Shown here piece after piece: positions 14,000 to 16,825 of a stretch of DNA of 33,238 bases (position 1 is the stretch's first letter; every line of letters begins with the position of its first letter). Source of the DNA: Nitrospirota bacterium. Its GTDB lineage: Bacteria > Nitrospinota_A > UBA7883 > JAJRTC01. The stretch is from positions 1 to 33,238 of the forward strand of contig JAJRTC010000005.1 of assembly GCA_024278445.1 (NCBI GenBank). The letters run 5' to 3'. The translations under genes and the position numbers were made by a program. A model generated the notes under the pieces. It was not told the origin of the DNA. It was given only the letters and a program-made list of their open reading frames with translations, and made no database searches.

Positions 14000-14365
14000 C
14001 TAGCCGATTTCTTCGTTTACGGCTTTTAACAAGCTGTCATGATCCAAAGGTTTTCTGAATGTGCGGCCTGCCCCCAGAAAAGATGACATCTTTAAAAAAT
14101 CGTTTCCGGTTTCAGTGGTGCCGGCTGTTATCGCAAATATTTTGGCGCTTGGAAAATCGCGTTTCAGTTGTTCTATCACCCCTAAACCGGATGTCTCCGG
14201 CATGAGAAGGTCAGTGATTATAAGATCAGCACGTTTCTCCTTGTATGCGGCAATCCCTTCTTTGCCGTTGGATGCTGTTAACACCTCGTATCCATTTACG
14301 GATAAAGTTTTTTTAAGAACTTCCAGTGTTAACTTGTCGTCGTCAATAACGAGGATAGTTTTCAT
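14000..14365 (-). CDS. Stand-alone CheY-like response regulator receiver
   Basis: MKTILVIDDDKLTLEVLKKTL...ADLIITDLLMPETSGLGVIEQLK...FRKPLD; conserved DD, phospho-acceptor D and K. Confidence 0.92.
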   Translation of the reverse strand: MKTILVIDDDKLTLEVLKKTLSVNGYEVLTASNGKEGIAAYKEKRADLIITDLLMPETSGLGVIEQLKRDFPSAKIFAITAGTTETGNDFLKMSSFLGAGRTFRKPLDHDSLLKAVNEEIG

Positions 14366-14486: not shown

Positions 14487-15785
14487 TTATACTGCTTGAG
14501 GTATCAGCTTCGCCAAAACGCGTTTTAACCGTTCAGAATTTCTCTTCCCGGCAGAAACCACATCGTTGTGCGAGATTGTTTTCTCCAGTTCGGCCGATGC
14601 TTCGTTAGATATGATCGCAAGGCCCGTGACGGTAACGCCCATACGTGCCGCTACCAGTGCTTCCGGAACCATAGACATGCACACGGCGTCTGCGCCGATG
14701 GAGCTTAAAAATTTTCTTTCGGCAGGCGTTTCATAAACCGGCCCGCGGACTGCCGCCAATATGCCTCTTTTGGGGCGAACGCGCGCCGATCGGCAGAGCC
14801 TGTCATATTTATCGGCAAGTGAATCGTCGTATATCGAGTTGCAATTAACAAAAACGGAAGGATCGCTGTTGGGGTCAACTCCGAAGAGAGGATTGTCTCC
14901 CATAAGGTTTATCTGATCTTCCACAAGCATTATGTCCCCCTTTCTAAAGTCGGGGTTTATAGCTCCAGCCGAAGTCGTGATGATAAGATGCTCCACACCC
15001 AAAGCCAGTATGGCCTGAATCGCGTGAGTTGTTTCGCTCATGGAACCTGTCTCATAGTAGTGGGAGCGCCCTGCGCTAAAAAGCAGCGGTACGCCGTCGT
15101 GCGAACCTGTTACAAAATGCCCCGGATGCCCTTCCGCCATCGGGAGAGGGAATTCCGGTATATCGGTAAACTTTATTTTTTTATCGCCAAAAAACTCTGC
15201 CGCTGGAAAAAGGCCGGAACCTAAAATTACCGCTACTTTAGGTTTGGTTACGATCTTGCGGTTAAGGTAGCCGATAGACCTTTTTATTTTCCCCTCTCTG
15301 GGGCCGAATATAGCTTCTCTTTTACGCCGAACCGCCGCTTCCATGACGTCTGGGACTACTATGGCCGGGCCCGGCCCTGAATCTGCATCGTCTCGTGACC
15401 TGCGCCTTATCGGGATAGCTCTTTTTTTTATTTTGGATACTTTAACGCGAAGAAGGGTGCCGTCCGGCTGGTTGCGAAGTTCGTATTCGTCTTCCTCTGG
15501 TTTAACAGCAGGTTTTTTTGTGACGGTTTTTTTCTTGGCAGTTTTTAAGGTCGTGGTTTTCTTTTTTGCCGGTTTTCTTCTAACCTTTGCTTTTGCGGCC
15601 GCCGGTTTTTTTTCGTCATCGGGTGCGACGCTCTCATCTTTCGGTGGTGTCGCCGTGGGCTTGCGCCTTAGGCCGGAGCGTGTTGTGACTCTTCTGGCGT
15701 CCCGTTTCGCTTTTCGGTTACTGCTTCTTGCCGAACCTTCTGTTCCTTCAGCTTCGATGCTTTCAGTTATTTTATTTTCGTTCAT
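14487..15785 (-). CDS. Purine nucleoside phosphorylase (trimeric PNP/MTAP family) with ~147-aa Lys/Arg/Ala/Pro-rich N-terminal extension
   Basis: Catalytic part VAVILGSGLFP...GHPGHFVTGSHDGVPLLFSAGRSHYYE...RGPVYETPAERKFLSSIGADAVCMSMVPEALVAARMG...ISNEAS; N-terminus KPAAAKAKVRRKPAKKKTTTLKTAKKKTVTKKPAVK. Overlaps the upstream ORF stop by 4 nt. Confidence 0.9.
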   Translation of the reverse strand: MNENKITESIEAEGTEGSARSSNRKAKRDARRVTTRSGLRRKPTATPPKDESVAPDDEKKPAAAKAKVRRKPAKKKTTTLKTAKKKTVTKKPAVKPEEDEYELRNQPDGTLLRVKVSKIKKRAIPIRRRSRDDADSGPGPAIVVPDVMEAAVRRKREAIFGPREGKIKRSIGYLNRKIVTKPKVAVILGSGLFPAAEFFGDKKIKFTDIPEFPLPMAEGHPGHFVTGSHDGVPLLFSAGRSHYYETGSMSETTHAIQAILALGVEHLIITTSAGAINPDFRKGDIMLVEDQINLMGDNPLFGVDPNSDPSVFVNCNSIYDDSLADKYDRLCRSARVRPKRGILAAVRGPVYETPAERKFLSSIGADAVCMSMVPEALVAARMGVTVTGLAIISNEASAELEKTISHNDVVSAGKRNSERLKRVLAKLIPQAV

Positions 15786-16825
15786 AGTCCTTCAGTTTCT
15801 TCTTCCTGTGTGGAAGGCGCGGCCACGTTTCGTGGTAGCTTAAGGTTTTTGATTATGTTTGAGGCCGGTTGCTTGATGGGAACCGATACGCCGTCTAGAA
15901 AGATCCTCGTTGCGGCGACGTTGCCGATGCTAAGGAGATAGCTCTCATTTGCCCACCATGTCGTTTGATTGCCTTCACGCAAAATAATTTCTCTCGTAAT
16001 GCTTCCGTCTACCACGACTTTGATCCATGAATCCTCCTCGGCCACGATAGTGAGGTAATAGGTTCTGGACGTGTCTTGCAGAGGCGAGCTTTCGTCTGCG
16101 CTCATGGCTTTTGGCGGTTCGGTTTTTTCCGTTTGCTCGGTTCTGTTGTCCTCTTCAGGCTCAATATCAGTATCGGTAGACGGTGCGTTAGCAGGTTTGT
16201 TAATCGGCTCCGTTTCTGCCGGGGCTATGTCAGATACTTTTTCATCATCTTCTGTTTCTACCGCCGGGGCGTTATCAACCTCTGCGTCGGGCAGAGCTTG
16301 TTCCGTTGGCAAAGATGTTTCAGGCTCAGGTGCAGGCTCCGGGATGGCGTTGCTTGGGACGATTACTTCCTCTTTTGTAACAGGAGCGGGAGTTTCGCCT
16401 TCTGTTTTGACAGGAAGATCGTTCACAAGCTGAGCCAGGCTATAAAGCAGAATAAGTACCAAAAGGGCCAAAATGACAAACTTGGGGATGTTAGACTGTG
16501 TCCGGTGAAGTGACATAGAGATAAATTCCGGCGAATTATCGACGTGTTCAACTCCAAGGCTCTCATAGCGAGACAAAATCTCATCGCCGTCTATTCCAAG
16601 TTCTTTGGCGCAAGAGCGTAACAGCCCCTTGGTGAACACCAAACCTGGCAGGTCGGTAAACCTGTCTTCTTCGGCCGCCCTTATAAACTTGGCGTTCATT
16701 CGGGTCAATTGCGACAACTCTTCGATGGAGAGGCCTTTTTGAACCCTTTTTTCGGTCAGGGTTTTGCCAATACTTTCGGTCATTCCTTCTAAAATCCTGT
16801 TTTTCTGAACAATTTCAGTCTGCAC
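15782..16825 (-). CDS. RodZ-like protein: Xre-family HTH, TM segment, acidic linker, periplasmic DUF4115-like domain
   Basis: IGKTLTEKRVQKGLSIEELSQLTRMNAKFIRAAEEDRFTDLPGLVFTKGLLRSCAKELGID, then a TM helix, Pro/Glu-rich linker, and YYLTIVAEEDSWIKVVVDGSITREIILREG. ATG at 16783 is an alternative start to the GTG at 16825. Confidence 0.85.
   Translation of the reverse strand: MQTEIVQKNRILEGMTESIGKTLTEKRVQKGLSIEELSQLTRMNAKFIRAAEEDRFTDLPGLVFTKGLLRSCAKELGIDGDEILSRYESLGVEHVDNSPEFISMSLHRTQSNIPKFVILALLVLILLYSLAQLVNDLPVKTEGETPAPVTKEEVIVPSNAIPEPAPEPETSLPTEQALPDAEVDNAPAVETEDDEKVSDIAPAETEPINKPANAPSTDTDIEPEEDNRTEQTEKTEPPKAMSADESSPLQDTSRTYYLTIVAEEDSWIKVVVDGSITREIILREGNQTTWWANESYLLSIGNVAATRIFLDGVSVPIKQPASNIIKNLKLPRNVAAPSTQEEETEGL

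Follow-up and report, generated by a model that had tools for sequence, protein, structure and literature searches.

We have found that the purine nucleoside phosphorylase (PNP) encoded in the window (the whole stretch of 33,238 nucleotides that was analysed, which is an entire contig of a 2.41-Mb genome in 269 contigs that is 87% complete) carries a long N-terminal tail. The tail is genuine, and an artefact of assembly or of start calling is excluded. Enzymes of the trimeric type (PNP-I) are among the best studied of the salvage enzymes and are normally compact, with some 270-290 residues. Here, about 160 added residues, net basic in charge, stand in frame with a complete PNP-I. As far as the literature and the databases searched show, this combination of a known enzyme with a lineage-specific, conserved arm is novel. 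Our preferred reading, to which we assign a probability of roughly 0.5, is that the tail is a lineage-specific disordered recruitment arm, probably binding nucleic acid electrostatically, on an active 6-oxopurine PNP. The initial annotation had described an in-frame basic extension before the PNP core, and was right about both its presence and its coordinates; the length it gave (~147 aa) was slightly too short, as the conserved tail reaches approximately residue 160. The gene, its parts and its upstream neighbour are as follows.

14487..15785, (-) strand: tailed purine nucleoside phosphorylase, whole gene, 432 aa (open reading frame, Pfam and NF006054 matches, orthologs in 12/12 order genomes)
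15306..15785, (-) strand: N-terminal tail, residues 1-160 (order-wide homology, dN/dS of 0.19, AlphaFold2, leave-one-out profiles)
14490..15305, (-) strand: PNP-I catalytic core, residues 161-432 (family profiles, active-site residues)
15726..15785, (-) strand: acidic first 20 residues, net -3 here
15660..15716, (-) strand: block A, residues 24-42, RKAKRDARRVTTRSGLRRK (alignment; order consensus roughly KR..TR..LRRK)
15492..15611, (-) strand: variable linker rich in Lys/Ala/Pro/Thr, residues 59-98 (alignment and charge count)
15435..15497, (-) strand: block B, residues 97-117, EEDEYELRNQPDGTLLRVKVS, predicted beta-hairpin with a PDGT turn
15357..15407, (-) strand: block C, residues 127-143, RRRSRDDADSGPGPAIV, with GPGPA nearly invariant as protein
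15342..15344, (-) strand: Met148 codon, the internal start proposed earlier (Met in 3/11 aligned orthologs)
15782..16825, (-) strand: rodZ-like gene (HTH_25 and RodZ_C), the stop of which overlaps the ATG of the tail by four bases (ATGA)

A homologous tail is present on the PNP, once each, in all 12 examined genomes of the window's order, which represent five families, and in 0/371 genomes outside the order. Two findings had been named beforehand as signs of a spurious tail, namely orthologs without the extension and a frameshift or assembly error at this place; neither was encountered for this genome, and a comparison of the N-termini of the orthologs showed the extension in 12/12 genomes. 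A whole-genome search recovered the orthologs of the 11 other order genomes at 44-50% identity, the match reaching well into the tail in nine of them. The contig of G003 breaks off close to where the gene starts, and the G010 copy is divided over two contig ends. A profile of 57 positions, which covers the C-terminal half of the tail, gave one match per order genome (12/12, E<=1.7e-14), always on the PNP, and G010, although outside the input of the profile, was still matched at E=1.7e-14. The same profile had zero matches in the remaining 12 genomes of the phylum, in the 371 genomes outside the order and in viral contigs, and the tail as a query against its own genome matched nothing besides itself. 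With leave-one-out profiles each real tail scored 30-145 bits, against 8.1 bits for the best of 500 composition-preserving shuffles. The possibility that the hairpin is a mobile module shared with other proteins was rejected, as in the order, the 371 other genomes and the viral contigs the profile matches PNP tails only.

The earlier remark that no standard PNP with such a tail is known was upheld by the 371 genomes outside the order, and no report of one was found in the literature as far as this was covered, which was in part. The single phylum genome from another class encodes a 269-aa PNP without the tail, and the open frames of the closest untailed PNPs sampled (~40-42% identity) span only 270-296 aa. 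Long open frames before PNPs do occur in other phyla, stop-free, mostly high-GC and in most cases with starts near the core; as equivalents of the tail they were rejected, being mostly high-GC read-through without suitable starts. The best explanation is that the tail was acquired by the ancestor of one bacterial order, early, and then kept. A housekeeping enzyme would thus have gained a recruitment or regulatory arm that persisted as an order-wide, single-copy feature. In the sister order (11 genomes of one family) there is no PNP-I above the curated cut-off; these genomes hold MTAP-like relatives only, which points to a different purine salvage route or to loss. Within the window's order, the core of the G004 copy (L005 / L122) is interrupted by an in-frame TGA and the tail blocks of this copy fall in different frames, by sequencing error or decay.

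Selection was assessed between G008 and G011, two genomes of one genus. The dN/dS values were 0.19 for the tail, 0.15 for blocks B and C, 0.28 for the linker and 0.07 for the core, with a third-position excess. Order-wide conservation and purifying selection together imply that the tails are translated and constrained. The four-base overlap between the ATG of the tail and the stop of the rodZ-like gene is found not only in the window but also in G005 and G006. Thus, the presence in 12/12 orthologs, the dN/dS values and the ATGA coupling rule out an assembly error, a frameshift or a wrong start. Since the arm begins at the rodZ-coupled ATG, the long protein is presumably the product that is made.

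An effect of annotation has nevertheless to be weighed, in which the real start is M148 or lies nearby and the frame upstream either stays open by chance or serves a second isoform. There is an in-frame ATG at 15344, and two other orthologs have Met at the same place. From the ATG at 15785 (-) the product has 432 aa in all, and from M148 it has 285, in agreement with the PNP of ~285 aa that the initial annotation derived from this codon when it proposed two isoforms. However, the M148 codon (15344-15342) is preceded by ccggccatagtagtcccagacgtc, in which there is no Shine-Dalgarno, most of the aligned orthologs lack the Met, and it is the upstream start that is coupled to rodZ; the proposal of two isoforms through M148 was therefore dropped. 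Moreover, the region upstream of M148 shows conservation at the protein level and purifying selection, with GPGPA kept despite codon change, and the stop-free read-through before the PNPs of other phyla is quite unlike this tail. We consider an annotation effect very improbable.

The layout of the tail is, from N- to C-terminus, an acidic stretch, the KR..TR..LRRK block, the variable linker, an acidic patch, the hairpin, an RRR-type patch and GPGPA. The first 20 residues are net -3 to -9 across the orthologs that are complete at this end. The order alignment gives E-Y-E-[IL]-[KR]-x-x-P-D-G-T-x-x-[KR]-V-K as the consensus of the hairpin, followed by RRR...GPGPA and then the PNP. Conservation in the tail is strongest in the hairpin and GPGPA, which have invariant columns of the types E-x-x-P-D-G and G-x-G-P-A, and not in the basic linker, the length, order and Lys/Arg usage of which differ among orthologs. 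GPGPA and PDG are near-invariant as protein and their codons vary, so that selection acts on the protein. A nucleic-acid element in the GC-rich palindrome GGGCCGGGCCCGGCC that encodes GPGPA was ruled out, as the codons of the orthologs differ.

The AlphaFold2 model, for which the alignment contained no tailed relative, predicts disorder for residues 1-98 (pLDDT ~30) and 118-146, a beta-hairpin with strands at 101-105 and 111-115 at a pLDDT of only ~60, and a helix that starts at residue 145 and runs into the PNP fold. Residues 1-160 match zero Pfam families and zero PDB chains at E<=1. A weak resemblance to the Pfam family Tcp10_C (E=0.005, 2/11 members) fits a PDG-type beta-hairpin and was set aside as insufficiently significant. 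The hairpin and GPGPA segment, for which there is no known homologue, would form a defined and testable module. The tail combines predicted intrinsic disorder with net positive charge (+28 over 181 residues), the charge peaking in the linker at +15 in 40 aa, where the runner-up among the window proteins has +8. Across the orthologs, the extension carries approximately +11 to +28 in 10/10 full or near-full sequences, and the cores carry -9 to +5. Acidic residues nevertheless make up 13-18% of the tail, which is therefore a polyampholyte with a net positive charge and not a pure polycation.

Considering these features, the preferred reading can be put as follows. The ancestor of the lineage would have joined a mostly disordered, basic N-terminal arm of ~160 residues to a PNP-I, and this would act as a disordered recruitment arm, multivalent and net basic in charge, in which two or three motifs are fixed. 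If the enzyme forms the homotrimer, there would be three arms per assembly. Through the variable basic linker and the KR..TR..LRRK block the arm would attach electrostatically, and at many points, to a polyanion, RNA or DNA being the likeliest; such a tether is what a basic linker would most naturally serve. The hairpin (PDGT) and the RRR..GPGPA segment would make a docking contact, either with a specific partner or with the enzyme to which they belong. Activity might be affected. As a result the enzyme would be concentrated at the sites where nucleosides are released. Should the arm bind a degradation complex or nucleic acid, the turnover of nucleic acids and the recycling of purines would be directly and physically connected. 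Tethering of the PNP to nucleic acid is plausible by the precedent of AlgP and PhaF, discussed below. A wider proposal is that, throughout the order, a conserved basic arm bearing a new small beta-hairpin module holds the PNP to RNA, to DNA or to an assembly for RNA decay, and so couples the breakdown of nucleic acids to purine salvage. We put it forward tentatively and judge it doubtful.

What counts against a tether is the acidic content of the tail, and that its best conserved parts, the hairpin and GPGPA, are not the basic ones. These parts are not H1-like and suggest that the arm also has a specific docking role. It is in fact possible, albeit clearly less probable than the preferred reading, that the arm serves mainly protein-protein docking: the LRRK block, the PDGT hairpin and GPGPA would, as short linear motifs, recruit the PNP to a specific partner, with a metabolic enzyme or a membrane-associated complex as candidates, and charge would be secondary. 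The ranking of conservation over a basic linker that is variable in length, order and Lys/Arg usage favours such an arm, and so do the rodZ gene and the gene for a protein with an FHA domain, which adjoin pnp in much of the order. Yet these neighbours are inconstant: rodZ is missing from the locus in one genus (g8) and the FHA gene from the window genome and G005, and the tail stays.

The initial annotation had compared the tail to histone H1 and to AlgP. The Lys/Ala/Pro/Thr composition on which the comparison relied is indeed found in this species; the likeness to H1 fails in that the linkers of the relatives are rich in Arg and Pro, with few or no KP pairs (five pairs in the tail of the window, 0-5 in those of the orthologs), and in that residues 1-160 match neither histone H1 nor any other Pfam family at E<=1. 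The tail in the window lacks Lys-Pro-Ala(-Ala) repeats. Homology to H1 or AlgP was accordingly rejected, there being no family match and no conservation of composition. The property that is conserved is a net positive disorder together with fixed motifs, and not the H1 composition. The basic disordered tails of AlgP and PhaF of Pseudomonas bind DNA and position granules or cargo (PMC9239181). The PNP tail resembles them as a long, disordered, basic tail on a folded domain, with a similar richness in Lys, Ala, Pro and Thr in this species. Unlike theirs, however, it is N-terminal instead of C-terminal, shows a few KP pairs but no KPAA repeats, is Arg-rich in most relatives with a substantial acidic content, is interrupted by a predicted beta-hairpin and is attached to a metabolic enzyme. 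AlgP and PhaF are for the PNP tail a mechanistic analogy, suggestive of tethering, and not a case of homology.

The analogy could be extended to targeting of polyphosphate granules, with which the H1-like AlgP of Pseudomonas, a protein with Lys/Pro/Ala repeats, associates (PMC9239181). This is a highly improbable role for the PNP tail. It is disfavoured because none of the 24 genomes of the phylum has the polyphosphate kinase PPK1 (PF02503; the search was for the PPK1 family only, and as a control was positive in 7/14 known genomes), and the tails of most relatives are without KPAA repeats. The citrate-binding domain of ATP-citrate lyase was observed in 24/24 of the same genomes, which agrees with, but does not prove, a place in Nitrospinota, where the rTCA cycle is universal (PMC10839748).

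The usual gene order in the lineage is lnt (divergent) / rodZ - pnp - FHA protein - nadB. The FHA protein has 234-245 aa and consists of a canonical FHA domain (GRE.GDI, STNGT; PF00498, E=3.6e-27) and a second FHA-like half. Its gene stands between pnp and nadB in 10/12 order genomes, and adjoins nadB in 6/11 genomes of the sister order. Copies were located at the following positions.

L120:7231-7950, (-) strand: FHA gene
L121:7326-8027, (-) strand: FHA gene
L122:6837-7559, (-) strand: FHA gene
L126:4789-5490, (-) strand: FHA gene
L127:5741-6475, (+) strand: FHA gene
L131:1012-1713, (+) strand: FHA gene

This arrangement in most of the order raises the possibility of phospho-regulation, in which Thr residues of the tail would be phosphorylated and read by the protein with two FHA-like halves that is encoded beside the PNP. 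We regard it as highly improbable. The FHA protein was not found anywhere in the window genome (87% complete), nor in G005, both of which keep the tail; conversely, in the sister order its gene lies beside nadB in genomes without PNP-I. The FHA protein is therefore not an obligate partner of the tail, and a partnership of the two was rejected, as their distributions do not match. Moreover, the Thr residues of the tail are poorly conserved, except for one in the predicted beta-turn. In the window, what lies between pnp and nadB instead of the FHA gene is a gene for a stand-alone response-regulator receiver protein of 121 aa (14000-14365, (-) strand).

The core to which the arm is attached is that of an ordinary PNP-I. 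The NF006054 model (PRK08202) covers residues 166-429 with 249.4 bits at a curated cut-off of 218, and PF01048 covers residues 183-428 with a score of 133 at a cut-off of 25.1. The nearest solved structures are PNP-I enzymes, both by sequence and by predicted fold, the top Foldseek matches of the predicted model having a TM-score to the target of ~0.9. The active-site residues S190, R240, H242, Y244, E245, E352, M370, S371, N394 and H406 are kept, the counterparts of which in human PNP we take to be S33, R84, H86, Y88, E89, E201, M219, S220, N243 and H257, respectively. Among them are Glu352 and Asn394, which belong to the 6-oxopurine site. The core should fold and phosphorolyse 6-oxopurine nucleosides, and it probably assembles into the usual homotrimer.

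Compared with PNP-I (NF006054/PRK08202; PDB 8SWT, 8SWU and 4M1E, and human PNP), the core fold and the catalytic residues are alike, whereas the ~160 N-terminal residues and an order-wide TSAG are particular to the enzyme described here. The PNP of Anopheles gambiae (2P4S, a chain of 373 residues) likewise has residues before its core; the match is to the core only (residues 171-428 to 99-364 of the chain), and similarity to the tail is absent. As to TSAG, the residues that precede the AG/GG turn are Asn-Ala in most PNPs. In place of Asn115-Ala116 of the NAAG turn the enzyme has T271-S272 (window 14970-14975, (-) strand), and TSAG is common to all aligned orthologs of the order. The outgroup PNP of G251 reads TSASGG at this turn. 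NAAG is hence not strictly invariant in the family, and Thr-Ser leaves the membership of PNP-I standing. The order-wide Thr-Ser adjoins the phosphate/base site and may shift the substrate preference.
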